Made by a program: the position numbers and the translations under genes. From contig NZ_JARRAG010000002.1 in assembly GCF_029589435.1 (NCBI RefSeq), forward strand, positions 1,798,001 to 1,862,000: 64,000 nucleotides of DNA, written 5' to 3'. Source of the DNA: Paludisphaera mucosa (GTDB lineage: Bacteria > Planctomycetota > Planctomycetia > Isosphaerales > Isosphaeraceae). Below, one piece after another: positions 300 to 46,029 of the stretch; position 1 is the first letter of the stretch; every line of letters starts with the position of its first letter. The notes under the pieces were generated by a model that worked only from the letters and a program-made list of their open reading frames with translations, ran no database searches and had not been told where the DNA came from.

Positions 300-2114
300 G
301 TGCTGCGAATGCAGTCGATCCATAAGTTGATCGAAGTCCTCTCGGACCGAGGACGACGGGAGCTCTGTCTGGAGCGGGTGTACCGACACCTCAGCCGTGA
401 AGACCTCCTGATCGAGGCGTACGCCAAGATCGGGAAGAATGATGGTGCCCTGACCCGAGGGGTCGACGGCGAGACCGTCGACGGGATGAGCCTGGAGAAG
501 GTCCAAACGATCAGCCAGCTCCTGCGGGACGGTGATTGGATCTGGAAGCCCGTCCGGCGCATCCACATTCCCAAGAAGGACGGCAAGACGCGTCCCCTGG
601 GGATACCCACCTGGTCGGACAAACTGGTCCAGCAGGTGATCAAGTTCATCCTGGAGGCTTACTACGAGCCGCAGTTCAGCCCTTTCAGCTTCGGCTTCCG
701 AAGCGGACTCGGCTGCCATCACGCCCTCAAGGAGATCGTGGACCGTTGGCGAGGAGTCAAGTGGTTCATCGAGGGCGACATCTCGAAGTGCTTCGACGGC
801 ATCGACCATCAGGTCCTGCTCTCGATGCTGACCGAGAAGATCCACGACGACAGGTTCATCAAGCTTGTGCGGACGATGCTTGAGGCCGGATATCTGGAGG
901 ATTGGCGTTACGGCGAGACCCTCAGCGGCACGCCGCAGGGGGGGATCGCCTCACCCGTCCTCGCCAATATCTACCTCGACGCACTCGACAAGTTCGTCGA
1001 GACCACCCTGCTCCCACGGTACAACCGGGGGAGCAAGCATCGGGTCAACGAAGAATGGCAACGGTTGAACAACATGATCAACCACCACCGCTCCACGTTG
1101 ACGGCCGAGGAGTATCTCGGCCTGGTGAAGGAACGGAGGAGGCACCCGTCGAGGGACCCTCGCGACCCGAACTTCCGGCGCCTGCACTACGTCCGGTACG
1201 CCGATGACTTCCTGCTGGGGTTCGCCGGGCCGAAAGTGGAAGCCGATGAGATCAAGGCTCAAATCCGGGGCTTCCTCACCGAGAGGCTGAGGCTCTCGCT
1301 CTCGGAGGAGAAGACCTTGATCACGCACGCGACCACGGAAAAGGCCCGGTTCCTCGGCTATGAACTCCGCTCGATGCGCTCCGACACCAAGGTCAGCCCG
1401 TCGAAAGGCGGCGGATTGAGGCGGAGCGTCAACGGGCTGATCGGGCTGTACGTCCCCAAGGACGCGATCGAATCGCGCTGCAAGGCGTACATGGCGGACG
1501 GGCGACCGACCCAGAAGACGAACCTGCTCCACGCGAGCGATTACCAGATCGTCACGCGCTACCAGGGCGTATTCCGGGGGCTGGTCAACTACTACGCCAT
1601 GGCACACAACGCCTCGAAGCGGTTGGACCGGCTTCGATGGGTGCTCGAGACTTCGCTCGTGCACACCCTCGCGGGTAAACATCGTTGTTCCGCGGCCTCA
1701 CTCTGGCGCAAGCACAAGGTGAAGGTCCCGACCGAGCACGGCCACGTGAACGCCTTTCGGATGCTCTTCCCGAGGGACGGGAAACCGCCCCTCATCGCAC
1801 AATTCGGGGGCCTATCGCTCCGGCGACGCGAGTTCGCGACCGCCGAGGACTTTGGGATGGGGATGGTCTTCGCCAAGTCGACCGACCTCATCCAGCGGAT
1901 CGCCGCCCGGGAGTGCCAGGTATGCGGTGCGACCGGGGTTCCGATCCAGGTCCACCACATCAAGAGACTCGCCGACCTGAAAAAGGGAGGCAGGCGGAGG
2001 ATCGCTCGGTGGAAGGAAGTCATGATCGGGCTGAGACGAAAGACCATCGCGGTCTGCGTCACGTGTCATGGGGCCATCCACTCAGGACGATATGACGGCC
2101 CCGCTCTGTCTTGA
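300..2114 (+). CDS. ltrA: Group II intron reverse transcriptase/maturase with HNH-type C-terminus
   Basis: The multifunctional intron-encoded protein (604 aa) binds the intron RNA to help splicing and copies it into DNA during retrohoming. The reverse transcriptase domain spans about residues 50-350 with the catalytic YADD motif (VRYADDFLLGF) and the GTPQGG signature before it. The maturase/X domain lies at about 370-510. The C-terminal 70 residues carry CxxC, an HH pair and CxxCH spacing typical of the HNH/zinc endonuclease of intron proteins. The longest frame starts with GTG at 300; an ATG at 309 is equally possible. The frame is open throughout, so the intron may be active. It resembles chloroplast-like/IIB-associated maturases; the exact class needs a phylogeny. 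Confidence 0.93.
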   Translation: MLRMQSIHKLIEVLSDRGRRELCLERVYRHLSREDLLIEAYAKIGKNDGALTRGVDGETVDGMSLEKVQTISQLLRDGDWIWKPVRRIHIPKKDGKTRPLGIPTWSDKLVQQVIKFILEAYYEPQFSPFSFGFRSGLGCHHALKEIVDRWRGVKWFIEGDISKCFDGIDHQVLLSMLTEKIHDDRFIKLVRTMLEAGYLEDWRYGETLSGTPQGGIASPVLANIYLDALDKFVETTLLPRYNRGSKHRVNEEWQRLNNMINHHRSTLTAEEYLGLVKERRRHPSRDPRDPNFRRLHYVRYADDFLLGFAGPKVEADEIKAQIRGFLTERLRLSLSEEKTLITHATTEKARFLGYELRSMRSDTKVSPSKGGGLRRSVNGLIGLYVPKDAIESRCKAYMADGRPTQKTNLLHASDYQIVTRYQGVFRGLVNYYAMAHNASKRLDRLRWVLETSLVHTLAGKHRCSAASLWRKHKVKVPTEHGHVNAFRMLFPRDGKPPLIAQFGGLSLRRREFATAEDFGMGMVFAKSTDLIQRIAARECQVCGATGVPIQVHHIKRLADLKKGGRRRIARWKEVMIGLRRKTIAVCVTCHGAIHSGRYDGPALS

Positions 2115-2121
2115 CACTGGA

Positions 2122-2213
2122 GAGCCGGATGCAGCGATAAGTTGCAAGTCCGGTTCGGAGGGGGGCGGTTGGAAAAGTGGCCGCGAGGCCAACTCGCTGG
2201 CCGCCTACCCCAC
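2122..2213 (+). ncRNA. Group II intron domains V and VI
   Basis: Bases 2122-2156 form the compact domain V hairpin: a GAGCCGG start pairs with the CCGGTTC end, with an internal AGC-type triad region. Bases 2162-2213 fold as domain VI. An unpaired A at 2207, six bases before the 3' end, sits where the lariat branch point is expected. Together these fix the 3' splice site at 2213/2214. Confidence 0.8.
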
Positions 2214-2476
2214 TCGACGCGGTCTACTTCATCGACCTGCCCGACTCCCGCGAGCGGGAGCTGATCTGGCGGATGCACTCCGAGCGGTTCGGACTCGATC
2301 CCGCCCAGCGTCGGCCCAGCGACGCCGACTGGACGGGCGCCGAGATCCGGGCGTGCTGCAGGCTCGCGGCCCTGCTCGACGTCCCGCTGGTCGAGGCGGC
2401 TCTCAACGTCTTGCCCGTGGCCGTGACGGCCGGCGAGTCGGTCGAGCGGCTGCGGTCGTGGGCCTCGGGCCGCTGA
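2214..2476 (+). CDS. Ycf46-like AAA+ ATPase, 3' exon (copy A, partial)
   Basis: The last ~87 residues of an AAA+ ATPase. They are nearly identical to the C-terminus of the intact paralogue at 41671-43164 (DLP, ERELIWRMHSERFGLDP, WTGAEIRACCRLAALL). The stretch covers the end of the AAA core and the small helical lid with the GAEI sensor-2 region. The rest of the gene lies upstream of the intron and outside the window. An open frame starting at 2177 is only intron sequence fused to the exon and is not a real start. If the intron splices, a full protein would be made. The stop is TGA at 2474-2476; the intact copy reads on about 29 codons past the equivalent point, so this copy ends earlier. Confidence 0.85.
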
Positions 2477-2619: not shown

Positions 2620-3600
2620 ATGACCACCTTGCTCGACCGCATCGACGGGCCGCCCGCCGGCCCTCCTGACGACTTCGCCGACCCGGCCCGACGGCTGCGC
2701 GCCGAGACGGCCGCCGCCCGCGTCGCGTTCACCTGGCTGGGGACCCGCAAGGCCCTCACCGCCCCGCAGCGCGACCGGGCCGCCGAGGCCTTCGACGCCG
2801 AGGGCTCCTGCCTCAGCGCCGGCAAGCGGCTGCTCGACGTCGGCCACCCGGCCTTCCGCGCCGTCACCGCCGTCCGGGGCCGGATCCGGTCGTACTGGCG
2901 CGAGTCCTCGCTGCCCTTCCCCGAGCCCGGCGTGCGCCTCATCCGTAAAAACCAGGTCGACGACTTCGCCCGCCGGATCGTCGACTTCCAGCGGGAGCTG
3001 GACGACGCGGTCGCCGAGCTCGACCGCCGCTACGGTGACCTGCGGGGGGCCGCCGCCGATCGCCTGGGGAGCCTGTACGACCCGGCCGACTACCCGTCGA
3101 CGCTCGTCGGCCTGTTCGCGGTCTCGTGCGACTTCCCGTCGGTCGAGCCGCCAAAGTATCTGTCGCGGCTCAGCCCGGCCCTGTTCGAGCGCGAGCGGGC
3201 GCGGATGGAGTCGCGGTTCGAGGAGGCGGTCGAGCTGGCCGAGCGGGCGTTCGCCGAGGAGTTCGCCCGCCTGGTCGAGCGACTCGCCGAGCGGCTCGAC
3301 GGCGTCGGCGACGACGGCCGGCCCAAGGTCTTCCGCGACTCGGCGGTCGACAACTTGTGCGGGTTCTTCGACCGCTTCAAGGCCCTGAACGTCCGCGGCG
3401 ACGCCCAGCTCGACGAGCTGGTCGAGCGGGCGCGGGACGCGGTCCGGGGCGTGGCGGCCCGGGACCTGCGCGAGGGCCCGGACCTGCGGGCCCGCGTCGC
3501 CCGACAGCTGTCCCAGGTCCAGTCAGCCCTGGACGGCATGCTCGTGGATCGCCCCCGCCGCCGCATCCTCCGCCAGGCGGCCGCCCCGGGAGGCGCCTGA
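2620..3600 (+). CDS. DUF3150-like protein of the Ycf46 cassette (copy A)
   Basis: A 326-aa soluble protein with no signal peptide or membrane segment. Features seen: a TRKALTAPQRDRAAEAF stretch, a GKRLLD motif near residue 72, an SLPFPEPGVRLI segment, and then long charged helices (about residues 115-310) with coiled-coil character. This order (Lys/Leu-rich 'GKKLLD', a 'LP.P....L' segment, helical remainder) is like DUF3150 proteins, which often sit next to AAA ATPases on plasmids and phages; the assignment is from memory and moderate. It follows the ATPase by 143 bp and overlaps the next gene by ATGA at 3600, so it is co-translated. The copy at 43212 is over 95% identical. It may be an adaptor or substrate of the ATPase (inference). 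Confidence 0.85.
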   Translation: MTTLLDRIDGPPAGPPDDFADPARRLRAETAAARVAFTWLGTRKALTAPQRDRAAEAFDAEGSCLSAGKRLLDVGHPAFRAVTAVRGRIRSYWRESSLPFPEPGVRLIRKNQVDDFARRIVDFQRELDDAVAELDRRYGDLRGAAADRLGSLYDPADYPSTLVGLFAVSCDFPSVEPPKYLSRLSPALFERERARMESRFEEAVELAERAFAEEFARLVERLAERLDGVGDDGRPKVFRDSAVDNLCGFFDRFKALNVRGDAQLDELVERARDAVRGVAARDLREGPDLRARVARQLSQVQSALDGMLVDRPRRRILRQAAAPGGA

Positions 3601-3845
3601 TGCAGCTGGTCGTCGACCCCCGCGGCGTCGTGCGGGCCGTGTACTCCGAGACGATCGACCTGGCCTCCCTGGGCCGCCCCGCCATCCTTCGCGCCAGCCG
3701 CGTCGAGCCCGACGCCGAGGGCCGCTGGACGGCCGACCTCGCCCCCGTCGGCGGCCCCGCGCTCGGCCCGTTCGCCCGCCGCGGCGAGGCCCTGGAGGCC
3801 GAGGCGGCCTGGCTTGAGGTGCACCGCCTCGCGCCGTGTCCTTAG
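3600..3845 (+). CDS. Small conserved protein of the Ycf46 cassette (81 aa, copy A)
   Basis: An 81-aa protein starting MQLVVDPRGVVRAVY. The ATG overlaps the stop of the preceding gene (ATGA), which argues for translational coupling and for this start. It has a predicted beta-rich N-terminal half and a C-terminal helix (RRGEALEAEAAWLE). No Cys, signal or membrane segment. It is nearly identical to the copy at 44192-44437 and differs mostly at the C-terminus (LAPCP versus LTPGL). I do not recognise a function; strict conservation between the two copies and the coupling show it is a genuine gene. Confidence 0.8.
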   Translation: MQLVVDPRGVVRAVYSETIDLASLGRPAILRASRVEPDAEGRWTADLAPVGGPALGPFARRGEALEAEAAWLEVHRLAPCP

Positions 3846-3977: not shown

Positions 3978-4283
3978 GTGACCCCGTCCCGGCTCGAACG
4001 ATCCGTCGCCCGCCGCACCGGCGATCCGCTGTCCGTGATCCGCCGCCTCGGCTTCCAGGCCCGCCCCGGCCGTCGCGACGAGCTGGAGGCCGAGAACCTC
4101 CACCTGGCCGTCCGCTGCCCGTTTTGCGGCGCCGACGTCCCCCTGCCGTCCGCCCCCTGCGGCCCGCCCGCCCTGGCCGGCTGCGGCCGCTGCGACGTCG
4201 AGTTCGAATACGCGGCCGCCGAACTCTTCGCCGCGGGACCCGGACTCGGAACCCGGCCGCACCGCCGCGTCCACTCGGCATAG
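3978..4283 (+). CDS. Small zinc-ribbon protein of the Ycf46 cassette (101 aa, copy A)
   Basis: A 101-aa protein with GTG start at 3978, preceded by GAGAGGAGCATCCC as a good ribosome binding site. The middle carries CPFCG followed about 18 residues later by CGRCD, a four-cysteine zinc ribbon, with one extra Cys (APCGPP) between. The N-terminus is basic (RLERSVARRTGDPL). It could be a nucleic-acid or protein-binding zinc ribbon. It is repeated as 44563-44868 with about 85% identity, and all cysteines are kept in both copies. The function is not known. Confidence 0.82.
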   Translation: MTPSRLERSVARRTGDPLSVIRRLGFQARPGRRDELEAENLHLAVRCPFCGADVPLPSAPCGPPALAGCGRCDVEFEYAAAELFAAGPGLGTRPHRRVHSA

Positions 4284-4346: not shown

Positions 4347-4505
4347 ATGGAGCCGCCCTTGATCGTCGTCATCCGTCTGCGGGCCGTTTACCGCAGGCGC
4401 CACCCCTGCGTCGAGCGCGGGGGGCCTCCGCCTCCCATCGTCTTTCAGGCCCGCCCTCTCGCAGAGACGCGAGCTAGATCCAATCCCGGAGGTGTCCGCC
4501 CTTGA
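4347..4505 (+). CDS. Tiny conserved ORF overlapping the next gene (52 aa, copy A)
   Basis: A 52-codon frame (MEPPLIVVIRLRAV...NPGGVRP). Its equivalent in the second cassette (44945-45091) keeps the reading frame, the VVIRxLR start, the VFQA centre and the NPGGxRP end despite many base changes. The stop TGA at 4503-4505 overlaps the TTG start at 4502 (TTGA), so translation of the next gene is probably coupled to it. The product is strongly basic. No family is recognised. The frame conservation between copies is the main evidence that it is translated. Confidence 0.6.
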   Translation: MEPPLIVVIRLRAVYRRRHPCVERGGPPPPIVFQARPLAETRARSNPGGVRP

Positions 4506-4672
4506 ACGCCAGGAACAAGCTGAACGTCGCCTACACCAACGGCTGCCTGCTCATGGCCGCGATCGCGGGCGGGGCGACCGGGAGCTGGGCCGTCTTCCTG
4601 CTGGCCGCCGCGGCCCTCGCGTCCGCCTGCGTCGCCAACGGGCAGATTCGGCATCGACCCACGCGCCGGTGA
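4502..4672 (+). CDS. Small membrane protein closing the Ycf46 cassette (56 aa, copy A)
   Basis: A 56-aa protein with a TTG start overlapping the previous stop (TTGA). A basic N-terminus (NARNKLNVAY) is followed by a single hydrophobic segment of about 30 residues (MAAIAGG...LLAAAALA) and a basic tail (RHRPTRR), a typical one-helix membrane peptide. The copy at 45088-45258 is almost the same and differs at N6K, T11A, G13D and around the second half of the helix. It is the last gene before a strong terminator. It could anchor the cassette's soluble proteins at the membrane (inference). Confidence 0.7.
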   Translation: MNARNKLNVAYTNGCLLMAAIAGGATGSWAVFLLAAAALASACVANGQIRHRPTRR

Positions 4673-5076: not shown

Positions 5077-8000
5077 CTACGGGCCGGGGCGAGCTCCGCG
5101 GCCCGGGGCGCAGGCCACCTGGTTGCGGCCACGGCCCTTGGCCTCGTAGAGAGCGAGGTCGGCGCGCCCCAGGCAGTCCTCGACGAACTCCCCGTCCGAG
5201 GGTGCGCCCGCGGCGACCCCGACGCTCGCCGTCACGATCCCGAGGCTCGCCGTCTCGTGGCGGATGTTTAAGGCGAGCACCGCGGCGCAGGCGCGACCGG
5301 CCACGTCGGCCGCCGTCTCGAGGGAGGCCCCCGGGAGGATGACCGCGAACTCCTCGCCGCCGTAACGCGCCACGAGGTCGACTCCCTGCCGGACGCTCCC
5401 ACGCAGCGCCGACGCGATGCTCCTGAGGCACTCGTCGCCCGCGAGGTGGCCGTAGCGGTCGTTGTAGAGCTTGAACCGGTCGACGTCGACCATCGCCATC
5501 GCGATCGGGCGCCCGGTCCGCACGGCCCGCAGCCACTCCGCTCCGAGAGCCTCGTCGAAGCGGCGGCGGTTGGCGAGCCCCGTGAGCGGGTCGGTGACGC
5601 TCAAGGCCTCCAACCGCCGGTTCGCCGCCGCCAGCTCCTCGGTCCGCGCGGCCACCCGACGCTCGAGCGAGGCGTAGAGCGACGCATTGTCCAGCGAGAT
5701 GGCGAGCTGGCCGCCCAGCAGGGCGACCGCGCCGATCCGCTCCGCCGAGAAGACGCCGCGGCTGTGCCGGTTCTCCAGGATCAGCACGGCGCGGAGGACG
5801 CCCCTGTCCAGGATCGGCGCGACCAGCAGCGAGCAGTGCTCGAGGCCGGCGAGGTAGGGGTCCTGCGCGAAGCGGTCGTCGCGACGCGCGTCCTCCACGA
5901 GGAGCGGCTCGCGGGTTCGTTCGGCATAGAGGAAGGCCGACAGGGGCATCAGGCCTCGCCGGCCGGCTTCCTCGACGGCGACCGGCGCGTCGGACCGCGC
6001 CGACGTCGCGGAGAGCCGCCAGCCTGGCGAGGCCCCGTCGCGGATCACGAGCAGCACCCTGGTCGCCCCCGTCATCGCGCCGAGCACGTCGCCGATGCGG
6101 GCTTCCAGACGCTCGAGGTCGGTCTCCGAGCTCAAGGCCTGGGACGCCCGCAGCACGGCCACCACGTCGATCGCCGAGGAGGTGAGGCCGCTGCTGCTCG
6201 GCGACGGCCTGGCGGCGACGGCGGCCCGCACGAAGGGATGATCGCGCTCGAGCTCCCGCACCTTGGCGGCCGCCCCCCAAGCCTCGTAGTGGCCCCGGGC
6301 CCGGGAGAGCAGCTCGCGGCCGGAGCGATGCAGCCCGTGCGCCAGGTGGAACCGCGCAGCCCGCTCGGCGATCAGGGCCCGGTGCCAGGGGCGTCGTCGC
6401 GCCTCGGCCTCGCGGAGGGCGGAGTCGAACGCGGTCGCCGCCCCCCACGAGTCGCCCACCGCCCACGCCCGCTCGGCCTCGACCAGCCCCCTCAAATGGG
6501 CGAAGTTCTCCGGCGCGTCCTGAGCCCGCAGGGAGATCCACGACAGGCCGGCGTCCAGCTCCAGGAGCGCCGCCCCACGCTCGAGCGGCGGCCCCGAGCG
6601 GACGCACTCCGCCAGGGCGAGCGAGCGCAGGAGGTGCGCCAGGGCCGTCGGGTAGAACCCCTGGATGTACGGGAGCAGGGGCATCGCGGCGGCCGAGTGG
6701 CGGAGCAGCGCCGGCGCGTCGTCGTGGACGGCCGCCGCCAGCGCGCGATGGATGTGATAGTAGGCGGCCGCCATCGGATTGTCGCCCCGGCCCGCCAGGA
6801 AGGCGTCGGCGTCGAAGTCGGCGTCCTCGAAGCCCCCGAGAGAGTCCGTCTCTCCGCGCAGGGCCCGCAGGAGCTGGCGGTAGACGAGGTAGGCGCCGTG
6901 TGCGTGCTCGTTGCCGGCCCGGAGCGCGAAGGCCAAGGCCTTGGCGACCTCGGCCTCGCAACCTTCGAGCGTGGGATCCAGCTCGAGCCGGGCCGCGAGG
7001 TCGACGTAGTGGGTGAAGCAGGCGAACTGCAGGTCGCCGCCCCGGATCAGCCCCTCGTACGCGAGTTCCGAGTGGCGGAGGCCGTTCTCGAGCGGCTCGA
7101 ACCAGTGCAGGGCGAAGAGGGCGAAGCAGTGGCGGACCAGCGAGGCCTCCGGCTCATACCCGCGGGCCTCGGCCACCGCGAGGGCGAACCGGGCCGCCTC
7201 GTAGCCGGTCCGGTAGTCCTGCCGCGACGGGATCGTGACCAGCGCCGTCGAGCCGAGGCAGGCCGCCAGCGGGGCGCAGGGGCCGTGCTCGATCCACAGG
7301 CCGTGGCATGCGAAGAACAGCTCGGCGAAGAGGGTCGGGTCGCTGAAGAAGGCCGGCGGCAGGAGCCGGTTCAGTATCAGGGCGGCACCCAGGACCCTCG
7401 GGTCGGCCGGCTCCGGTCGCAGCGCCTCGTCGCGCCGGGCCGCGTCGTCGATCCAACGTTTCAGCTCGTCGAGCCTTTCGTCCATGCGCGAGCCCGACGC
7501 CCGGACGGCCGTCGGCATTCCGAGCCGCCGCACGAACCGGAGCCCGAGCTCCAGGGCCTCGCGCTGCTTCCCCCGGGTGGACAGGCAGTCGATCTGGACG
7601 TGGACCGACCCGACGATCTCCAGCGGGTCTCGACTACGCCGCTCGATCGCGTCATAGACGCGGTCGGCCTCCTCGTGACGGCCGAGGGCGTACAGGACGG
7701 CGTGCAGCTCGACCTCGACGGCCGCCCCCAGGGGGTCGTCCGGCGAGCCCTCGCCGGTCGAGGCCGTCGCCGCGACGAGATAGCGCTCCGCCGTCGCGTC
7801 GTCCGCCGACCGGCGTGCGAGCGATGCGGCCTCGAGGAAGAGCCCGGCCGCCGCGCGTCGCTCCGCCGGGTCCGTCGTCGGCCCGACCGCGTGGAGGTAC
7901 TGTCCCGCCGCCTCGGCGCGCCGGCCCGGCAGGGCCGCCAGCCGACGGGCGAGCACGAGGTGCAGGCCCGCCCGGGCGTCCGGGTCCAGCAGGCCGCCGT

Positions 8001-10299
8001 AGGCGGCCTGCTGGACCCGGTCGTGTCGGAAGCGGTACGTCGACTCGCGCCCTGCGACCTCCGGACCCGACTGGACTCCTACCAGCAAGCCGTCGTCGAG
8101 GGCGGGCCGGAGCCGCTCCGCCAACGAAGCCGGGGAGGGCCCGCCGACGGCCTTCAGCAAGGAAGCTTCCACCTCGCCCCCGAGGCAGGCCATGATCCCC
8201 AGCAGGTCCCGGGACGCTCCGGGCAGCCTGGCGATGCGGGCGGCCAGCAGGTCCGCCACCTCGCCGCGGCCCACGAAGCGGCGAATCGTCGCCGGGTCCC
8301 AACTCCAGCCCGCCGGCCCCAGGGCGAGGGCCCCGTCCTGCCTGAGGGCGTCGACGAGCTCGACGGAATCGTAGGGGTTGCCCCCGGTGCGCCCGCCGAT
8401 CAAGGCCGCCAGCCGATCCGCCCGCGGGCGGCCCAGGTGGAGCATCTCGCCGAGTAAGGAGCCGAGCTCGCCGGTCGGCAGGCCGAGGAGGCGGATCCGC
8501 GCGGGGGCCATGTCGAGTCGGACCAGTCGCGACAGCATCAAGGAGAGGGGGTGGACTTCCTCCACCTCCGCATCGCGATAGGCGCCGACCAGCAACAGCC
8601 CGGGCAGCCCGCGGTCGGTCAGCAACGCGTCGAGGAACCCCATCGAGGAAGGCCCCGCCCACTGGAGGTCGTCGAGCACCAGGACCAGCGGCCGGGCCGG
8701 CGAGGCGACGGCCCGCAGCAGCTCCACCACCGTCAGGCGGAGGCGGGCCGCGGCCTCGACGGGGTCCACGGTCGTCGCCGGCGGCGTCGGGCCCAGCAGC
8801 ACCGCGAACTCGGGGACCAGGTCCGCGATCAGGCCGGCGTTAGGCCCCAGGGCGCGACGGAGGGCTTCCCGCTGGGGGACGAGGTCCGACTCCGGCTCGG
8901 CGAGGAGCAGGCGGCCCAGCGCCCCCAGCGCCTGGACGAGGGCCCCGGGGCTCGAATCGAGGCGATATTGGTCGTACTTCCCCGCCGCGAACCAGCCCCG
9001 CCGGCCGGTCACCATCGGCCTCAGCTCGTCGACGACCGCCGTCTTGCCGACGCCGGGCGCGCCCAGGACGAAGACGCCGCGGCCTCGGCCCTCGATCGCC
9101 TCCCCGAGGGCCGTCCGCAACGCGGCGACGGGCGCGTCGCGGCCGAACAGCCGCGAGGGGGGCGTGAGCCGCGACGGGAAGTCGCGCCCGCCCAGCTGGA
9201 AGGGCGTGCGATCCCCCCTCGCCTCCGCCTCGATCAGCCGGGACAGGTCGTGGGCCAGCCCTTCCGCGCTCTGATAGCGGTGGTCCGGCTCTTTCTCGAG
9301 CAGGCGCATGACGATCGCCGAGAAGGTCGGCGAGATCTCCAGGCGTCGCTCCGCCGGCGGGGTCGGGATCCGCGCCAGGTGGTCGTGGACCAGCGTGAGC
9401 GGGTCGTCGTCGTCGAAAGGGGGCCGGCCGACGGCCAGCTCGTAGAGCGTGGCGCCGAGGGAGTAGAGGTCGGCCCTCCTGTCCAACGGGCGGCCCGTCC
9501 GGCCGGTCTGCTCCGGGGCGATGTAGGCGAGGGTCCCGACGATCTCGCGATGGTGGCCGAACCCCGGCCTCTCCTCGACGCTGGTGGTGGCGAGCTCGAA
9601 GTCGATCAGGACCGGCTCGCCGTCCGCCCCCGGGGTGATGAGGATGTTGCTCGGGTTCACGTCCTTGTGGACCACGCCGCGGCGGTGGACCGCGGCCAGG
9701 ATCTCCGCCAGCCGGAAGGCGATCCGCAGCAGCCCGGGACCGGCCATCGGACCGCGACGCGGCGCATCGGAGAGCGACGTCCCGCCGACGTCGACCATGG
9801 CGATCGCGTGGGGGATCTCGACGGAAACGGCCAGCCGCGGCACCCCTTCGACGCCGGTCAGTCGATCGAGGATTTCCACTTCGTGGGAGCGTCTCGCCAT
9901 CGAACGCGGGCCCAGCGGCCGCTTGCAGATCAGGCTCGCCCCCCCGGCCGTCGGCCTCAGGCGGGCGACGCGGGTGCGGTCGCTCTCGTAGAGGATTTCG
10001 ACCTCGATGTAGTCTCCTTCGATCGACCTCGACGGGGCCGCCCCGGGGCCGGCGGCGGGCGCCTCGCCGGGCGGCTTCTCGGCAGGTCGATCGGTGCGGA
10101 GCCTGGACGCACCGGCTTGGACGCGCCCCGGGACCGAGAAGCCGCCCGTCTCCGAAGGCGCGACCCGAAAGCCGCCGCCCGGATCCGATCTCCCGCGAGG
10201 ACCGAGCCCAGGTACGTCGGGACGCCCCCTCGGCCGAGGAGGCGCATCGGTCCTCGGCGACGTGTCGGCCGGAGGCGCTGCAGGGTCGTTGATGCTCAT
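5077..10299 (-). CDS. Giant Ser/Thr kinase - AAA ATPase - GAF - GGDEF signalling protein
   Basis: A 1740-aa cytoplasmic protein predicted to make c-di-GMP under control of a kinase and ATPase module. After a Pro/Arg-rich 90-residue leader comes a protein kinase domain (about 95-355) with Lys126, HKD at 211-213 in place of HRD, DFE at 233-235 in place of DFG, and APE at 261-263. A predicted AAA/STAND ATPase follows, with GAPGVGKT at 413-420 and LVLDDLQW as Walker B, then a long helical TPR-like region. A GAF domain (about 1400-1560) leads into GGDEF with RYGGEEF (GGEEF at 1647-1651). The RxxD inhibitory site is degraded (QGVD). This is the family of large kinase-AAA-GAF proteins, usually ending in a histidine kinase; here a diguanylate cyclase replaces it. 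Its 3' end has a decayed duplicate at 45.46-46.03 kb. Confidence 0.93.
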   Translation of the reverse strand: MSINDPAAPPADTSPRTDAPPRPRGRPDVPGLGPRGRSDPGGGFRVAPSETGGFSVPGRVQAGASRLRTDRPAEKPPGEAPAAGPGAAPSRSIEGDYIEVEILYESDRTRVARLRPTAGGASLICKRPLGPRSMARRSHEVEILDRLTGVEGVPRLAVSVEIPHAIAMVDVGGTSLSDAPRRGPMAGPGLLRIAFRLAEILAAVHRRGVVHKDVNPSNILITPGADGEPVLIDFELATTSVEERPGFGHHREIVGTLAYIAPEQTGRTGRPLDRRADLYSLGATLYELAVGRPPFDDDDPLTLVHDHLARIPTPPAERRLEISPTFSAIVMRLLEKEPDHRYQSAEGLAHDLSRLIEAEARGDRTPFQLGGRDFPSRLTPPSRLFGRDAPVAALRTALGEAIEGRGRGVFVLGAPGVGKTAVVDELRPMVTGRRGWFAAGKYDQYRLDSSPGALVQALGALGRLLLAEPESDLVPQREALRRALGPNAGLIADLVPEFAVLLGPTPPATTVDPVEAAARLRLTVVELLRAVASPARPLVLVLDDLQWAGPSSMGFLDALLTDRGLPGLLLVGAYRDAEVEEVHPLSLMLSRLVRLDMAPARIRLLGLPTGELGSLLGEMLHLGRPRADRLAALIGGRTGGNPYDSVELVDALRQDGALALGPAGWSWDPATIRRFVGRGEVADLLAARIARLPGASRDLLGIMACLGGEVEASLLKAVGGPSPASLAERLRPALDDGLLVGVQSGPEVAGRESTYRFRHDRVQQAAYGGLLDPDARAGLHLVLARRLAALPGRRAEAAGQYLHAVGPTTDPAERRAAAGLFLEAASLARRSADDATAERYLVAATASTGEGSPDDPLGAAVEVELHAVLYALGRHEEADRVYDAIERRSRDPLEIVGSVHVQIDCLSTRGKQREALELGLRFVRRLGMPTAVRASGSRMDERLDELKRWIDDAARRDEALRPEPADPRVLGAALILNRLLPPAFFSDPTLFAELFFACHGLWIEHGPCAPLAACLGSTALVTIPSRQDYRTGYEAARFALAVAEARGYEPEASLVRHCFALFALHWFEPLENGLRHSELAYEGLIRGGDLQFACFTHYVDLAARLELDPTLEGCEAEVAKALAFALRAGNEHAHGAYLVYRQLLRALRGETDSLGGFEDADFDADAFLAGRGDNPMAAAYYHIHRALAAAVHDDAPALLRHSAAAMPLLPYIQGFYPTALAHLLRSLALAECVRSGPPLERGAALLELDAGLSWISLRAQDAPENFAHLRGLVEAERAWAVGDSWGAATAFDSALREAEARRRPWHRALIAERAARFHLAHGLHRSGRELLSRARGHYEAWGAAAKVRELERDHPFVRAAVAARPSPSSSGLTSSAIDVVAVLRASQALSSETDLERLEARIGDVLGAMTGATRVLLVIRDGASPGWRLSATSARSDAPVAVEEAGRRGLMPLSAFLYAERTREPLLVEDARRDDRFAQDPYLAGLEHCSLLVAPILDRGVLRAVLILENRHSRGVFSAERIGAVALLGGQLAISLDNASLYASLERRVAARTEELAAANRRLEALSVTDPLTGLANRRRFDEALGAEWLRAVRTGRPIAMAMVDVDRFKLYNDRYGHLAGDECLRSIASALRGSVRQGVDLVARYGGEEFAVILPGASLETAADVAGRACAAVLALNIRHETASLGIVTASVGVAAGAPSDGEFVEDCLGRADLALYEAKGRGRNQVACAPGRGARPGP

Positions 10300-40673: not shown

Positions 40674-40973
40674 GTGAGCCACATCGTGACGATCGAGACC
40701 CAGCTCCGCGACCCGGCGGCGGTCGCGGCCGCCTGCCGCCGGCTCGGCCTGCCCGGGCCGGTGCAAGGCGTCGCCAAGCTATACTCCGGCCAGGCCGTCG
40801 GGCTGCTGGTCCGGCTGCCGGGCTGGCGCTATCCGGTGGTGGTCGACGCGGCCGCCGGCCGGGTCCGCTACGACAACTTCGACGGGGCCTGGGGCGCGCC
40901 GGAGCACCCGGGCCGCCTGGCGCAGGCGTACGCGGTGGAGAACTCGACTGCGCCACGAGGCACCCCCTGTTAG
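40674..40973 (+). CDS. DUF1257 (Ycf35-like) protein, first copy, short
   Basis: A 99-aa protein starting with GTG after GAGAGGAAAACCT. It has the DUF1257 pattern SHIVTIETQLRDPAAVAAACRRLGL, then LLVRLPGWRYPVVVDAAAGRVRYDN. DUF1257 is the Ycf35 family of cyanobacteria and red-algal plastids; its function is not established. Compared with the next gene it ends early: after QAYAVE the equivalent C-terminal ~33 residues are replaced by NSTAPRGTPC, so the C-terminal helix and strand are missing. It may still fold as a partial paralogue of its neighbour. Confidence 0.85.
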   Translation: MSHIVTIETQLRDPAAVAAACRRLGLPGPVQGVAKLYSGQAVGLLVRLPGWRYPVVVDAAAGRVRYDNFDGAWGAPEHPGRLAQAYAVENSTAPRGTPC

Positions 40974-41054
40974 GGTTCTAGGTCAGGGCTGCGGGGCCAC
41001 GTCGGCCCCGGCGTCCATTTTCATCTCCGTCCCCTTGGAAAGGCGACCACCCCC

Positions 41055-41423
41055 GTGTCACACATCGTTCAGATCGAGACCAGGATGCACGACCTGCAGG
41101 CCATCGCCGCCGCCTGCCGTCGTCTCGACCTCGAGGGGCCCGTGGAGGGCACCGCCCGGCTGTTCAGCGAGAGCGTCGCCGGGCTGCTCGTCGAACTCCC
41201 CGGCTGGCGCTATCCGGTCGTCATCGACGCGACCGGCGGGACGGTCCGCTACGACAACTACGGCGGCCGCTGGGGAGAGCAGCGGCACCTGGAGCGGCTC
41301 ACCCAGATCTACGCGGTGGAGAAGGCCGAGATCGAGGCGCGGAAGCGGGGCTGCTCGGTCGTCGAGCACGCGCTGGCCGACGGCTCGATCAAGCTGACCA
41401 TCAGCGTCGGGGGTGCGTCTTGA
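41055..41423 (+). CDS. ycf35: DUF1257 (Ycf35-like) protein, second copy
   Basis: A complete DUF1257 protein of 122 aa: SHIVQIETRMHDLQAIAAACRRLDL, LLVELPGWRYPVVIDATGGTVRYDNYGGRWG, then LTQIYAVEKAEIEARKRG and a C-terminal strand KLTISV. GTG start at 41055. The stop overlaps the TTG start of the DUF2997 gene. Ycf35, DUF2997 and Ycf46 are conserved together in cyanobacteria, so this order links the planctomycete cassette to that set. The symbol reflects family membership only. Confidence 0.88.
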   Translation: MSHIVQIETRMHDLQAIAAACRRLDLEGPVEGTARLFSESVAGLLVELPGWRYPVVIDATGGTVRYDNYGGRWGEQRHLERLTQIYAVEKAEIEARKRGCSVVEHALADGSIKLTISVGGAS

Positions 41424-41614
41424 GCAAGTCCATCGAGATCGTCGTCGACCCCAAGGGCGGGACGACCGTGCGGACGACGGGCTTCGCCGGGGCGGCCTGC
41501 CGCGAGGCCAGCCGGTTCGTCGAGCAGGCCCTGGGCCTCAGGACGGCCGAGACCCTCACGGCCGAGTTCCACCAGGGCGTGCAGGCTGCCCCGCGGCTCG
41601 AGCAGTCCACCTGA
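41420..41614 (+). CDS. DUF2997 protein
   Basis: A 64-aa protein with TTG start overlapping the previous stop (TTGA). It reads KSIEIVVDPKGGTTVRTTGFAGAACREASRFVEQALG, the characteristic DUF2997 pattern (a short strand-turn-strand with a G(A)xC, then a helix with E/L repeats). In cyanobacteria this small protein usually sits next to Ycf35. A regulatory or binding peptide is plausible; no biochemical role is known to me. Confidence 0.85.
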   Translation: MSKSIEIVVDPKGGTTVRTTGFAGAACREASRFVEQALGLRTAETLTAEFHQGVQAAPRLEQST

Positions 41615-41670
41615 CGCCGCCCCTCCGCACTTCCCCAACACACTTCGTCTTAACCATCGAGGAGCATCCG

Positions 41671-43164
41671 ATGACGCTCGCCGAGCGCCTCGCGGAGCAC
41701 GTGCGCGCCTGCTTCACCGGCCTGTGGATCCGGTCGGCCGAGCACCAGGACGCCCTGGCCGAGATCGCCGACCTCTGCCGCTCCGAGGGCTGGTCGCTCG
41801 CCGCCTGGGACGTCGACGGCGGGCTGCGGGCCCTCGCCGGCGCGGCCGCCTCCGGCGTCGACGCCGCCGACCCGCTGGCGGCGGTCCGGTCGCTGGACGC
41901 CATGGCCGCGCCCGACGGCGCGGCGCTGCTGGTCCTGGTCAACTTCCACCGCTTCCTCGCGAGCCCCGAGGTCGTCCAGGCCCTCGACGCGCGGATCCAT
42001 TCGGGCAAGCAGGCCCGGACCTTCGTGGTCGTGCTGTCGCCGGTGGTGCAGATCCCGGTCGAGCTGGAGAAGCAGTTCGTCGTGATCGAGCACGAGCTGC
42101 CCGGCCGCGGCCAGCTCGAGGCGATCGCCCGCTCGATCGCCGTCGAGCCGGACGAGATGCCCGAGGGCGACGAGCTGGGCCGGGTGCTGGACGCCGCCGC
42201 CGGGCTCACGCGGTTCGAGGCCGAGGGGGCGGTCAGCCTCTCGCTGGTGCGCCACGGCCGGGTCGCGGCCGGGCCGCTCTGGGAGCTGAAGAGCGGAATG
42301 CTCAAGAAGTCTGGCCTGCTGACGCTGCACCGCGGCGGCGGGACGTTCGCCGACCTGGGCGGCCTGGGCGCCCTCAAGGCGTTCTGCACGAAGGCCCTGC
42401 GGCCGGGTCGCGAGGCCGGCGTCCACGCCCGCGGGATCCTGCTCTTGGGCGTGCCGGGCACGGGCAAGTCGCAGTTCGCCAAGGCGCTGGGCGCCGAGAC
42501 GGGGCGGCCCACGCTCGCGCTCGACGTCGGGGCGCTGCTGGGCTCGCTCGTGGGCGAGACCGAGCGGAACGTGCGGCAGGCGCTGCGGATCGCCGACGCG
42601 ATGGCGCCTTGCGTCCTGTTCTGCGACGAGGTCGAGAAGGCCTTAGGCGGCGCGGCCTCGGGCTCCCACGGCGACTCGGGTGTCGGTGCCCGGCTGTTCG
42701 GCTCGCTGCTGACTTGGCTGTCGGACCACGAGTCGGACGTCTTCTTCGTCGGCACCTGCAACGACGTCACGAGGCTGCCGCCGGAGTTCAGTCGGGCCGA
42801 GAGGTTCGACGCAATTTACTTCATCGACCTGCCCGACCCCCGCGAGCGCGAGCTGATCTGGCGGATGCACTCGGAGCGGTTCGGGCTCGACCCCGCCCAG
42901 CGCCGGCCCCGCGACCAGGACTGGACGGGCGCCGAGATCCGGGCCTGCTGCCGGCTGGCGGCCCTGCTCGACGTGCCGCTCGTCGAGGCGGCGCTCAACG
43001 TCGTGCCGGTGGCCGTGACGGCCGGCGAGTCGGTCGAGCGGCTGCGGTCGTGGGCCTCGGGCCGCTGCCTGGCCGCCGACCGGCCCGGCGTCTACACGCG
43101 CGGCGGGTGGCCGCTCGACGGGCCCCGCCGCGAGGTCCGCCGGGGCGCGCCTTCGGACAACTGA
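41671..43164 (+). CDS. ycf46: Ycf46-like AAA+ ATPase (copy B, intact)
   Basis: A 497-aa soluble AAA+ ATPase. The N-terminal domain (1-220, LWIRSAEHQDALAEIADLC, LLVLVNFHRFL, QIPVELEKQFVVIEHELP) is typical of Ycf46. The AAA core (about 225-430) has Walker A GVPGTGKS, Walker B CVLFCDEVEKA, sensor-1 GTCND and an RFDAIYFIDLP region. The lid contains WTGAEIRACCRLA. Start ATG 41671 has GAGGAG nine bases before. Ycf46 has been connected with inorganic-carbon acclimation in a cyanobacterium (from memory); in a planctomycete the role is open. A remodelling ATPase acting on the flanking small proteins is a fair working model (inference). Confidence 0.93.
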   Translation: MTLAERLAEHVRACFTGLWIRSAEHQDALAEIADLCRSEGWSLAAWDVDGGLRALAGAAASGVDAADPLAAVRSLDAMAAPDGAALLVLVNFHRFLASPEVVQALDARIHSGKQARTFVVVLSPVVQIPVELEKQFVVIEHELPGRGQLEAIARSIAVEPDEMPEGDELGRVLDAAAGLTRFEAEGAVSLSLVRHGRVAAGPLWELKSGMLKKSGLLTLHRGGGTFADLGGLGALKAFCTKALRPGREAGVHARGILLLGVPGTGKSQFAKALGAETGRPTLALDVGALLGSLVGETERNVRQALRIADAMAPCVLFCDEVEKALGGAASGSHGDSGVGARLFGSLLTWLSDHESDVFFVGTCNDVTRLPPEFSRAERFDAIYFIDLPDPRERELIWRMHSERFGLDPAQRRPRDQDWTGAEIRACCRLAALLDVPLVEAALNVVPVAVTAGESVERLRSWASGRCLAADRPGVYTRGGWPLDGPRREVRRGAPSDN

Positions 43165-43211
43165 TCGTCGCTTTCGCACCCCTCCATTTCTCCATCACCA
43201 CCGGAGCCGCC

Positions 43212-44192
43212 ATGACCACCTTGCTCGACCGCATCGACGGGCCGCCCGCCGGCCCTCCCGACGACCTCGCCGACCCGGCCCGCCGGCTGCGCGACGAGAC
43301 GGCCGCCGCCCGCGTCTCGTTCACCTGGCTGGGGACTCGCAAGGCGCTCACCGCCCCGCAGCGCGACCGGGCCGCCGAGGCCTTCGACGCCGAGGGCTCC
43401 TGCCTCAGCGCCGGCAAGCGGCTGCTCGACGTCGGCCACCCCGCCTTCCGCGCCGTCACGGCCGTCCGCGGCCGGATCCGGTCCTACTGGCGCGAGACGT
43501 CGCTGCCCTTCCCCGAGCCCGGCGTGCGGCTCATCCGCAAAAACCAGGTCGACGACTTCGCCCGCCGGATCGTCGACTTCCAGGCCGAGCTGGACGACGC
43601 CGTCGCCGAGCTCGACCGCCGCTACGGCGAGCTGCGGCGGGCCGCCGCCGAGCGCCTGGGGAGTCTGTACGACCCGGCCGATTATCCCTCGACCCTGGTC
43701 GGCCTGTTCGCGGTCTCGTGCGACTTCCCATCGGTCGAGCCCCCCGAGTACCTGTCGCGGCTCAGCCCGGCCCTGTTCGAGCGCGAGCGGGCGCGGATGG
43801 AGTCGCGGTTCGAGGAGGCGGTCGAGCTGGCCGAGCGGGCGTTCGCCGAGGAGTTCGCCAGCCTGGTCGAGCGCCTCGCCGAGCGGCTCGACGGCGTCGG
43901 CGACGACGGCCGGCCCAAGGTGTTCCGCGACTCGGCGGTCGAGAACCTGTGCGGGTTCTTCGACCGCTTCAAGGCCCTGAACGTCCGCGGTGACGCCCAG
44001 CTCGACGAGCTGGTGGAGCGGGCGCGGGAAGCGGTCCGGGGCGTGGCGGCCCGGGACCTGCGCGAGGGCCCGGACCTGCGGGCCCGCGTCGCCCGCCAGC
44101 TGAGCCAGGTCCAGTCGGCCCTGGACGGCATGCTGGTGGACCGCCCCCGCCGCCGCATCCTTCGCCAGGCGGCCGCGACGGGAGGCGCCTGA
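43212..44192 (+). CDS. DUF3150-like protein of the Ycf46 cassette (copy B)
   Basis: A 326-aa paralogue of 2620-3600 with the same length. Nearly all differences are conservative (for example DDLADP for DDFADP, RETSLPF for RESSLPF). The extended charged helices are kept, indicating purifying selection on both copies. It overlaps the 81-aa gene by ATGA, and the ATG follows CCGGAGCC. Confidence 0.87.
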   Translation: MTTLLDRIDGPPAGPPDDLADPARRLRDETAAARVSFTWLGTRKALTAPQRDRAAEAFDAEGSCLSAGKRLLDVGHPAFRAVTAVRGRIRSYWRETSLPFPEPGVRLIRKNQVDDFARRIVDFQAELDDAVAELDRRYGELRRAAAERLGSLYDPADYPSTLVGLFAVSCDFPSVEPPEYLSRLSPALFERERARMESRFEEAVELAERAFAEEFASLVERLAERLDGVGDDGRPKVFRDSAVENLCGFFDRFKALNVRGDAQLDELVERAREAVRGVAARDLREGPDLRARVARQLSQVQSALDGMLVDRPRRRILRQAAATGGA

Positions 44193-44437
44193 TGCAGCTG
44201 GTCGTCGACCCCCGCGGCGTCGTGCGGGCCGTGTACTCCGAGACGATCGACCTGGCCTCCCTGGGCCGCCCCGCCATCCTTCGCGCCAGCCGCGTCGAGC
44301 CCGACGCCGAGGGCCGCTGGACGGCCGACCTCGCCCGCGTCGGCGGCCCCGCGCTCGGCCCCTTCGCTTTTCGCAGAGAGGCCCTGGAGGCCGAGGTCGC
44401 CTGGCTCGAGGCCCACCGGCTCACGCCCGGGCTCTGA
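44192..44437 (+). CDS. Small conserved protein of the Ycf46 cassette (81 aa, copy B)
   Basis: Paralogue of 3600-3845. Identical through DLASLGRPAILRASRVEPDAEG-like positions, with a changed loop (FAFRREALEAEVAWLEAH). ATGA overlap with the upstream gene as in copy A. No function recognised. Confidence 0.8.
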   Translation: MQLVVDPRGVVRAVYSETIDLASLGRPAILRASRVEPDAEGRWTADLARVGGPALGPFAFRREALEAEVAWLEAHRLTPGL

Positions 44438-44562
44438 CTCTCCAGCGTCCGCCTTCTACGCGCCGCCCCGCATTCCCGTCCCGCCCTATCGCCCCGCGCG
44501 ACCCCGAGGCCGCCGGGCGTGCCGGACGGCCCCGGCCGCCCCACGCCCGAGAGGAGCATCCC

Positions 44563-44868
44563 GTGACCCCGTCCCGGCTCGAACGCTCCGTCGCCCGCCG
44601 CACCGGCGACCCGCTCGCCGTGATCCGTCGCCTCGGCTTCCAGCCCCGCCCCGGCCGGCCCGAAGACCTGGAGGCCGAGGACCTCCACTTGGCCGTCGCC
44701 TGCCCGTTCTGCGGCGCCGACGTCCCCGTGCCGTCCGCCCCCTGCGGCCCGCCTGCGCTGGCCGGCTGCGGCCGCTGCGACGTCGAGTTCGAATACGCCC
44801 CCGCCGAACTCTTCGCCGTCGGACCGGGATTCGGGGCCCGGCCGCACCGCCGCGTCTACGCGGAGTAA
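44563..44868 (+). CDS. Small zinc-ribbon protein of the Ycf46 cassette (101 aa, copy B)
   Basis: Paralogue of 3978-4283 with the CPFCG and CGRCD pairs intact and the same GTG start behind GAGAGGAGCATCCC. The 36 bp before the start are almost unchanged between copies, so the translation signal is conserved. No function recognised beyond probable zinc binding. Confidence 0.82.
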   Translation: MTPSRLERSVARRTGDPLAVIRRLGFQPRPGRPEDLEAEDLHLAVACPFCGADVPVPSAPCGPPALAGCGRCDVEFEYAPAELFAVGPGFGARPHRRVYAE

Positions 44869-44944
44869 TCGAATGCTGGCCGTGCTTGCGCGGCTTCCTT
44901 TGACCGTGTCGAATCCGAACCGACCCGAATCACGGAGGACCCTG

Positions 44945-45091
44945 ATGGTCGTCATCCGCCGCCTGCGGGTCGTCACCCGCGGGCACGCCCCGAGCGTGGA
45001 GCGCCGGGGAGCTACTCTTCCCCTCGTCTTCCAGGCCGACCCGACAGCCGAGAAGCAGCCAACGCCCAATCCCGGAGGCAGTCGCCCTTGA
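44945..45091 (+). CDS. Tiny conserved ORF overlapping the next gene (48 aa, copy B)
   Basis: MVVIRRLRVVTRG...LVFQADP...NPGGSRP, the counterpart of 4347-4505. The stop overlaps the TTG of the membrane-peptide gene exactly as in copy A. A longer frame from 44873 exists but its extra N-terminus is not shared with copy A. Confidence 0.6.
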   Translation: MVVIRRLRVVTRGHAPSVERRGATLPLVFQADPTAEKQPTPNPGGSRP

Positions 45092-45258
45092 ACGCCAGGA
45101 AGAAGCTGAACGTCGCCTACGCTAACGACTGCCTGCTCATGGCCGCGATCGCGGGCGGGGCGACCGGGAGCTGGGTCGTCTTCCTGCTGGCCGCCGCGGC
45201 CCTCGCGGCGGCCAGCGTCGCCAACGGGCAGATTCGGCACCGACCCACGCGCCGGTGA
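45088..45258 (+). CDS. Small membrane protein closing the Ycf46 cassette (56 aa, copy B)
   Basis: A 56-aa single-helix protein matching 4502-4672 (NARKKLNVAYAND, hydrophobic core, RHRPTRR tail) with the TTG start in a TTGA overlap. Last gene before the terminator. Confidence 0.7.
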   Translation: MNARKKLNVAYANDCLLMAAIAGGATGSWVVFLLAAAALAAASVANGQIRHRPTRR

Positions 45259-45272
45259 GGTCCGGTGCACAT

Positions 45273-45319
45273 CCCCGGCCACGGCCACGGCCGTGGCCGG
45301 GGACGCCGAGCTCCTTTTT
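45273..45319 (+). terminator. Terminator after cassette copy B
   Basis: A perfect 13-bp stem identical to that of copy A, loop CACG instead of TTCG (45273-45302), then five Ts at 45315-45319. Confidence 0.8.
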
Positions 45320-45464
45320 AGCCGTGGACCATTCGCGCGTTCGCCCCCCATGGCCGGCCAAGAGTGGAGCCCGCCGCGCCGATGATGGCCCCGGGAGCAT
45401 GCACCCCGAACGGCCCGTGGATTCTCGTCCCGCGAAGGCTCTGGCCAGAAAGCACGGCGGGTCG

Positions 45465-46029
45465 CGGCGGCGGCCACGGCCCTTGGCCTCGTAGAGCGCG
45501 AGGTCGGCGCGCCCCAGGCAGTCCTCGGCGTGCTCCCCGTCCGAGGGTACGCCTGCGACGACTCCGACGCTCGTGGTCACGATCCCGAGGCTCGCCGCCT
45601 CGTGGCGGAAGTTCAACGCGAGCACCGCGGCGCAGGCTCGACCGACCACCTCGGACGCCGCATCGAGGCCGGCCCCCGGGAGGATGACCGTGAACTACTC
45701 GCCGCCGTAACGCGCCACGAGGTCGACGCCCTGCCGGACGCTCCCGGCCAACGCCGACGCGACGCTCCTGAGGCACTCGTCGCCCGCGAGGTGCCCGTAG
45801 CGGTCGTTGTAGAGCTTGAACCGGTCGACGTCGACCATCGCGATCGCGATCAGGCGCCCGGTCCGCGCGGCCCGCAGCCACTCTCGGCTCCCAGAGCCTC
45901 ATCGAAGCGGCGGCGGTTGGCCAGCCCCGTGGGCGGGTCGGTGACGCTCAAAGCCTCCAGCCGCCGGTTCGCCGCCGCCAGCTCCTCGGTCCGCGCGGCC
46001 ACCCGACGCTCGAGCGAGGCGTAGAGCGT
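45465..46029 (-). pseudogene. Decayed GGDEF domain, duplicate of the giant kinase gene's 3' end
   Basis: The minus strand matches the last ~200 codons of the 1740-aa protein (RACAAVLALN.RHE.ASLGIVT.SVGV, CLGRADLALYEAKGRGR). It cannot work: the GGEEF signature reads GGE-stop-F (TAG at 45695-45697), a 2-bp insertion near 45890 shifts the frame, and the kinase, AAA and GAF parts are absent because the duplication ended at 46029. Confidence 0.88.

Follow-up and report, generated by a model that had tools for sequence, protein, structure and literature searches.

A planctomycete cassette of a Ycf46-like two-domain AAA ATPase and its partners, with alternative ubiquitin-like and sliding-clamp modules, as a possible p97-like remodelling system

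Ycf46, Ycf35 (DUF1257), and DUF2997 are families of cyanobacteria and plastids. DUF2997, a Ycf46-like ATPase, and probable DUF1257 proteins are encoded in Paludisphaera mucosa by a cassette at 40674-45303 of a 64,000-nucleotide stretch, hereafter the window (contig NZ_JARRAG010000002.1, positions 1,798,001 to 1,862,000 of the forward strand). What does such a cassette do, and which genes belong to it? The core is composed of DUF1257, DUF2997, an AAA ATPase, a DUF3150-family helical protein, and an 81-residue protein, S81, and is followed by the ZnL protein. In sister loci, ZnL is followed by one of two modules: a ubiquitin-like protein (UBL) with its processing enzymes, or a divergent beta sliding clamp. 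The core genes also occur on phages and plasmids. The reading preferred here, tentatively, is a p97/Cdc48-like remodeller with swappable targeting modules, likely serving DNA replication, recombination, or the maintenance of mobile elements.

The core genes recur together across the phylum. In a set of 294 genomes, the ATPase was searched at a threshold of E 1e-40 or better and its figures refer to the matches listed, at most five candidates per genome. Matches are present in at least 91 genomes for the ATPase, 44 for DUF2997, and 15 each for the DUF3150-like protein and S81. A listed ATPase match lies within 6 kb of 49/62 DUF2997 matches, 25/35 DUF3150-like matches, and 26/35 S81 matches, and S81 stands beside a DUF3150-like match in 30/35. 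Seen from the other side, 50 of the 140 ATPase matches listed have DUF2997 within 6 kb. Some core genes without a nearby listed ATPase are artefacts of candidate listing or contig ends, and loci L235 and L237 do hold an ATPase. An earlier note on this DNA had expected the small genes to recur with the ATPase, and they do: in addition to S81, the N-terminal part of ZnL and the small membrane protein TM56 are found in sister loci. S81 is tied to the core independently of DUF3150, because L253 and L254 carry S81 after DUF2997 and show no DUF3150 match.

Viral and plasmid loci carry the same families. The 87 viral loci are the best 80 of at least 344 confirmed ATPase loci plus 7 reached via DUF3150, some of them duplicates. 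All five core families are present in 8/87, in several orders, and the ATPase, DUF1257, and DUF2997 in 35/87. This variation in gene order argues for function over mere shared descent of the block. Among eight annotated plasmid and phage regions, seven have an annotated DUF2997 gene near the ATPase and five an annotated DUF1257 gene; only the Treponema region lacks both. On the Manganitrophus plasmid, a gene annotated as DUF3150 and a homologue of S81 are found in addition. Genes of DNA metabolism lie near the ATPase in some loci and include a PD-(D/E)XK nuclease, phage DnaN, a DnaB-like helicase, UvrD, and ThyX. The phage gene at L158 is recognized as an ordinary DnaN, with 183.1 bits against a cut-off of 137.65, and in Rhizobium phage RHph_I4 the core adjoins the phage's own lysis and DnaB-like genes.

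Gene order was mapped in 37 loci. An optional lipoprotein-like gene precedes DUF1257, DUF2997, an optional TOPRIM-like gene, AAA, DUF3150, S81, and ZnL, and the module comes last. The lipoprotein-like, TOPRIM-like, and membrane labels were assigned by eye. Neither Pfam nor NCBIfam was informative on the TOPRIM-like protein, and the lipoprotein-like protein had no Pfam match. The type A module is made up of UBL, optionally TM56, an E2-like/cysteine-rich protein, JAB, and ThiF/E1. It accompanies the ATPase in 13/37 loci, including viral contig L228 and L243, the latter with only an end fragment of the ATPase at a contig end. The type B module, a divergent beta sliding clamp and optionally TM56, accompanies the ATPase in 9/37. 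Both modules occur together in 0/37, and ZnL is present in 22/22 module-bearing ATPase loci. In eight of the 37 the core stands without a module (L078, L081, L244, L245, L253, L254, and the two window copies), while L251 and L252 hold DUF3150, S81, and ZnL at a contig end, also with neither module.

The two modules can coexist in one genome. Genomes G238, G181, and G024 each hold type A and type B at separate loci, and G238 has seven cassettes. In the phylum set, a DUF3150-like match lies within 8 kb of 9/11 strong clamp matches and 12/15 E2 matches; the clamp count leaves out 13 weak rows (E 5e-13 to 8e-7) that may be ordinary DnaN. Further clamp loci beyond the 37 are L088, L089, L090 (clamp in pieces), L095, and L100, and the clamp gene of L093, L096, and L102 is on the opposite strand. 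A PD-(D/E)XK nuclease gene lies 3' of the clamp-like gene in L071 (11904-12776, by Pfam) and, judged by eye, in L246 and L247. A DUF932 gene accompanies a clamp or UBL module in L247 and L249, which have no ATPase core.

Three type A proteins are recognized by Pfam: UBL as ThiS (25.1 bits, cut-off 22.5), JAB as Prok-JAB (26.3 bits, cut-off 25), and E1 as ThiF (101.8 bits, cut-off 28.1). The HTHP...D motif is present in 16/16 JAB matches. The E2-like protein has no Pfam or NCBIfam match and is labelled E2 because HPH[VI]-x5-C, a pattern that resembles the classical E2 active-site motif, is conserved in 16/17 matches; the remaining match is only the C-terminal part of a protein that is split. 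Its cysteine-rich tail has weak RING similarity (Midline-1, E 0.0076). A loose motif search for the E1 catalytic cysteine hits 13/16 and is not used as proof. The curated PRTRC_ThiF cut-off of 144.75 lies well above L228 (38.4 bits) and L212 (63.5). Viral contigs L212 and L217 each have a ThiF/E1 gene at a distance of a few kb from a group made up of the ATPase, DUF2997, DUF1257, and a radical SAM gene. The account of prokaryotic RING/E2 operons by Burroughs et al. (2011) could already list the type A enzymes.

The type B protein is about 460-475 residues long with an added C-terminal stretch. When its family profile was compared with the PDB, 28/28 sequences at E up to 1 were beta-clamp chains (best E 1.1e-5). 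A single clamp protein had no match in the PDB, and the two members scanned had no Pfam or TIGR00663 match.

The ATPase is the centre of the cassette. Classical AAA is its best Pfam family (PF00004, 91.9 bits), with AAA_5 below cut-off. The predicted model, built with 14 sequences, combines two AAA folds in a single chain. The part up to about residue 215 would form an AAA fold without a P-loop, and the active AAA domain is predicted at about 250-440. The sole Walker A motif is at residues 260-267, and a P-loop looked for in residues 1-230 was not found. The second domain also has two arginines that do not vary, even across the distant 14-sequence alignment. In structure comparison of the model, residues 1-143 alone resemble the NVL AAA domain (Z 13.1, 3.2 Å over 129 residues) and dynein (Z 12.8), and the chain from about residue 215 resembles FtsH, Vps4, and the proteasomal ATPases. 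The Foldseek ranking of the whole chain by E-value is led by p97 D1D2 (E 1.5e-13) and also lists NVL, Rix7, and 55LCC. The nearest ATPase relatives, from Paludisphaera soli, are 83-89% identical, and similarity to Geminocystis, Planktothrix, and Nostoc plasmid ATPases extends over 42-80% of the query.

In the proposed mechanism, the degenerate first AAA domain would serve as adaptor or scaffold and the active second domain as motor, presumably in a hexamer. DUF1257, DUF2997, DUF3150, and S81 would be dedicated adaptors of the ATPase, and the swappable 3' module, linked through ZnL, would set the substrate. With type A, the motor may act on proteins marked by UBL, a mark that the neighbouring E1, E2-like protein, and JAB would attach and take off. 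With type B, it may strip or reload complexes held by the divergent DNA sliding clamp. A role in DNA metabolism is suggested by the neighbouring nuclease, clamp, and phage replication genes, and modified substrates are suggested by the type A cascade. Composition and linkage are observed, and these functional steps are inferred. Membrane tethering is possible, in view of TM56 and the lipoprotein-like gene upstream in sister loci. With a P-loop-less first domain, adaptors, and exchangeable neighbours, the cassette is easier to reconcile with a p97-like remodeller than with an activator of MoxR type or with any known defence system. The general AAA+ remodelling system put forward in the earlier note survives as the best reading; the alternative modules of the sister loci lay beyond its view.

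Several observations weigh against the remodeller. The model confidence is limited, with a predicted local distance difference test (pLDDT) of 70 and a predicted template modelling score (pTM) of 0.53. Because the whole-chain p97 matches have template modelling scores (TM-scores) of 0.26-0.30 and a root-mean-square deviation near 20 Å, the p97 likeness of the predicted chain extends to domain order only; packing does not match. The CDC48 model gives the ATPase 83.2 bits, far from the curated cut-off of 802.65. Partners are often absent: 90 of the 140 ATPase matches listed in the phylum are without DUF2997 in the surrounding 6 kb on either side, 37/87 viral loci have the ATPase without any partner, and at the Treponema plasmid locus neither DUF1257 nor DUF2997 is annotated or found. 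The ATPase family is therefore broader than the cassette. Conversely, L246-L250 have a module without an ATPase in the mapped stretch, with ZnL in 4/5. The UBL has no C-terminal GG and ends in IEGA (once VQGA) plus a short tail, and hhalign gives no support for a relation between the clamp family and the L158 phage DnaN (E 0.089). Finally, Synechocystis Ycf46 is reported to affect CO2 use, not DNA (PMC7496141).

Of the other explanations, a conflict system survives best, and it is doubtful. The ATPase core would here be an anti-phage or anti-plasmid device with exchangeable effectors, kept in several copies per genome, which phages would carry to compete with other mobile elements. The modular 3' ends, the seven cassettes of G238, and carriage on plasmids and phages would suit such a role, as would the decay of or insertions in several copies and the resemblance of E1 and JAB to the PADLOC E1-E2 and JAB models. 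The PADLOC similarities, however, are to single proteins, and no system is assigned. Pfam names no nuclease, toxin, or pore-forming family among the core proteins, and phage RHph_I4 keeps the core beside its own genes. IetAS, an anti-phage system whose partner gene is a subtilisin, shares AAA domain similarity (PADLOC IetA 5.3e-18), but this is confined to the AAA domain, and the score of 62 bits is far below the 510 that NCBIfam requires.

Less probable still is a maturation chaperone that inserts or repairs the cofactor of a metal or radical enzyme. MoxR/CbbQ-type ATPases are enzyme activators of this kind. In ten phage, plasmid, and planctomycete loci, the ATPase has a radical SAM or 4Fe-4S gene in its vicinity (L084, L112, L113, L115, L158, L159, L176, L191, L212, and L217); that of L115 scores 84.2 bits as NrdG, below the cut-off of 126.1. 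In cyanobacteria, moreover, DUF2997 and ycf35 form a conserved cluster with the ferredoxin gene fed7 (PMC4284462). Against this, the iron-sulfur profile used matches in 0/37 mapped loci, and the best family of the ATPase is classical AAA, with AAA_5 under its cut-off. A general quality-control unfoldase with no dedicated DNA role, its neighbours hitch-hiking on mobile islands, would suit the listing of Ycf46 in many plastid genomes and the eight mapped cores without a module, but is improbable given the linkage in conserved order and the closeness of strong clamp and E2 matches to DUF3150.

The features of the window cassette, and of a second copy at the start of the window (the first copy), are collected in Table 1. 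Of the families that the earlier note had named at 40674-45319, DUF2997 (cut-off 24.1) and AAA are confirmed at that place by Pfam. DUF1257b falls just under the PF06868 threshold (22.2 bits), and for DUF1257a Pfam gives no match. Profiles grown from DUF1257b match annotated DUF1257 genes beside the same ATPase family on a phage and on plasmids, which speaks for a DUF1257 identity. The DUF3150-like helical protein also stands, by a less direct route. The 326-residue protein has no DUF3150 match of its own in the Pfam scan and is assigned to the family because two homologues match PF11348 (42.6 and 37.7 bits, cut-off 24.9) and its predicted model resembles, by Foldseek (E 1.1e-13), a viral protein that bears the DUF3150 name. 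Compared with the PDB, this model matches nothing more specific than common helical bundles, with Z scores of 9.2 at most. The perfect closing hairpin is upheld as well; a 64-nt stretch folds at -41.9 kcal/mol (z -5.4).

The Pfam scan assigns no family to S81. The N-terminal part of ZnL is kept in sister loci, and a direct search with its C-terminal zinc ribbon finds only the copies of the same genome and Paludisphaera soli. The zinc-ribbon and 48-residue profiles strayed to other reading frames that overlap the DUF3150 and zinc-ribbon genes; those matches were dropped, and a new ZnL seed replaced the drifted zinc-ribbon profile for mapping across loci.

Table 1. Features of the two cassette copies in the window (window coordinates)
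Feature	Position	Strand	Basis
DUF1257a, native gene truncated after about codon 91	40674..40973	+	comparison with intron-split copy
DUF1257b (Ycf35 family), chimera of divergent N-terminal part and native C-terminal part	41055..41423	+	PF06868, 20.8 bits
DUF2997 protein, 4-base overlap with DUF1257b	41420..41614	+	PF11211, 48.9 bits
Two-domain AAA ATPase (Ycf46-like), 497 aa	41671..43164	+	Pfam, predicted model
DUF3150-family helical protein, 326 aa	43212..44192	+	homologues and predicted fold
S81, 81-aa conserved core partner	44192..44437	+	phylum and viral profile searches
ZnL protein (zinc ribbon at C-terminus)	44563..44868	+	sister-locus conservation of N-terminal part
Scar of deleted clamp-like gene	44869..45070	.	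comparison with third copy
Tiny basic open reading frame (48 aa), mostly within clamp scar	44945-45091		comparison with third copy
TM56, small membrane protein	45088..45258	+	membrane helix judged by eye
Perfect 14-bp hairpin, terminator-like	45272..45303	+	fold computation
Group II intron reverse transcriptase/maturase-like open reading frame inside first copy's ATPase gene	300..2114	+	reverse transcriptase read by eye
First copy ATPase 3' exon, up to premature TGA	2214..2476	+	comparison of copies
First copy DUF3150-family protein	2620..3600	+	
First copy S81	3600..3845	+	
First copy ZnL/zinc-ribbon protein	3978..4283	+	
First copy remnant of clamp-like gene	4347..4505	+	tblastn
First copy TM56	4502..4672	+	

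The genome (8.2 Mb, 9 contigs) has three copies of the ATPase cassette. The third copy (L009) is 0.69 Mb away, at about 2.52 Mb of contig C2; it is 95% identical, of type B, and retains the clamp. The earlier note had seen a bare duplication of the 3' half at 2.2-4.7 kb, which in fact belongs to a longer, intron-split cassette and comprises its 3' exon with the genes that follow. About 378 initial ATPase codons of this first copy lie upstream of the window. The intron is 2435 bases long with GTGCG...AC ends (L008:9780-12214; window 1-2213) and matches Rfam group II RF00029 (54.2 bits, cut-off 40). Joining the exons keeps the frame, but a premature TGA stands at codon 466 of 497. A partial lone S81 match at G000:C1:858897-859040 may be all that is left of a fourth cassette.

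Identity between the window cassette and the first copy is 89% over 2.7 kb, 92% over a further 0.56 kb, and 83-90% upstream; the two therefore descend from one duplicated segment. A GGDEF-like gene fragment (45318-46028) follows the window cassette, and a long open reading frame (5077-10299, 1740 residues), by eye with a kinase-like start and a GGDEF-like end, follows the first copy. Since GGDEF-like sequence lies 3' of both, the duplicated segment included the end of that reading frame. Among the three copies, the ratio of non-synonymous to synonymous substitution rates (dN/dS) is 0.16-0.23 for the ATPase and DUF3150, 0.36-0.59 for S81, and 0.41-1.0 for the zinc-ribbon protein; in ATPase pairs with the first copy the exon border is a few bases off, which touches few codons. 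These ratios suggest that the ATPase and DUF3150 are under constraint, S81 less so, and the zinc-ribbon protein hardly.

Both window copies have lost the clamp gene. The clamp site of the window cassette spans about 0.2 kb, compared with about 2 kb in the third copy, so that about 1.8 kb is missing. The first-copy remnant aligns to residues 29-71, at the N-terminus, of the third copy's clamp-like reading frame (tblastn 2.4e-6); the match of the window cassette's own tiny-reading-frame stretch to the clamp-like protein is not significant. The tiny basic reading frame, listed in the earlier note as a partner, is thus, as far as comparison of the copies can tell, a remnant of the deleted clamp-like gene and not a conserved gene.

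The DUF1257 pair, which had been taken for two intact genes, consists of a truncated gene and a chimera. Each of the other two genome copies has a single DUF1257 gene. Codons 1-90 of DUF1257a are identical to the intron-split copy at 245/270 nt, with a break afterwards. DUF1257b agrees with the native gene at 189/270 nt over its first 90 codons and at 91/96 nt over its last 32. In the planctomycete loci L070 (1059-4453) and L102 (1643-5173), a large serine recombinase gene with Resolvase, Recombinase, and zinc-ribbon domains is inserted within DUF1257, and a complete spare DUF1257 gene lies alongside. The native break in L070 is at the same place as the DUF1257a break, or within one codon. The pair in the window may thus be the scar of a recombinase-type insertion as in L070 and L102.

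Literature searches on DUF1257/DUF2997, Ycf46, DUF3150, PRTRC, and combined terms found no paper on the whole set, and parts of it have known counterparts. The cyanobacterial and plastid families are here joined in one unit with DUF3150, S81, and ZnL, to which sister loci add a module of type A or type B; unlike the cyanobacterial fed7 cluster, the 37 mapped loci hold no iron-sulfur gene that was found. For Ycf46, Ycf35, and DUF2997, whose mechanism is unsettled in the literature examined, partner and substrate candidates are now testable.

The closest parallels to the type A module are PRTRC and 6d/6e among the prokaryotic Ubl operons that Iyer et al. described in 2006 (PMC1779556). These likewise bring together UBL, E2-like, JAB, and E1-like proteins. 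Here, in contrast, the E2-like protein carries a fused cysteine-rich domain, and the module usually comes after an AAA/DUF1257/DUF2997/DUF3150 core; the main text of Iyer et al. was searched for the terms AAA and DUF1257, and neither was found. The type B protein, whose profile matches only beta clamps in the PDB, is set apart from DnaN by its length, its extra C-terminal stretch, and the lack of a Pfam or TIGR00663 match in two members.

Two serial AAA domains are common to the predicted ATPase and to p97, Cdc48, and NVL, its leading structural matches, whereas the first domain here has no P-loop and the domain packing does not superpose. With the p97-like remodeller, planctomycetes and mobile elements would gain a plausible bacterial counterpart of the Cdc48 pathway. 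A bolder extension, which we consider unlikely, is that a two-domain AAA unfoldase with its own adaptors, paired with UBL-E1-E2(RING-like)-JAB or with a clamp and shared with mobile elements, would be an independent bacterial parallel to the action of eukaryotic Cdc48 on ubiquitylated or PCNA-bound proteins during replication and repair of DNA, with plastid Ycf46 and Ycf35 as relics.

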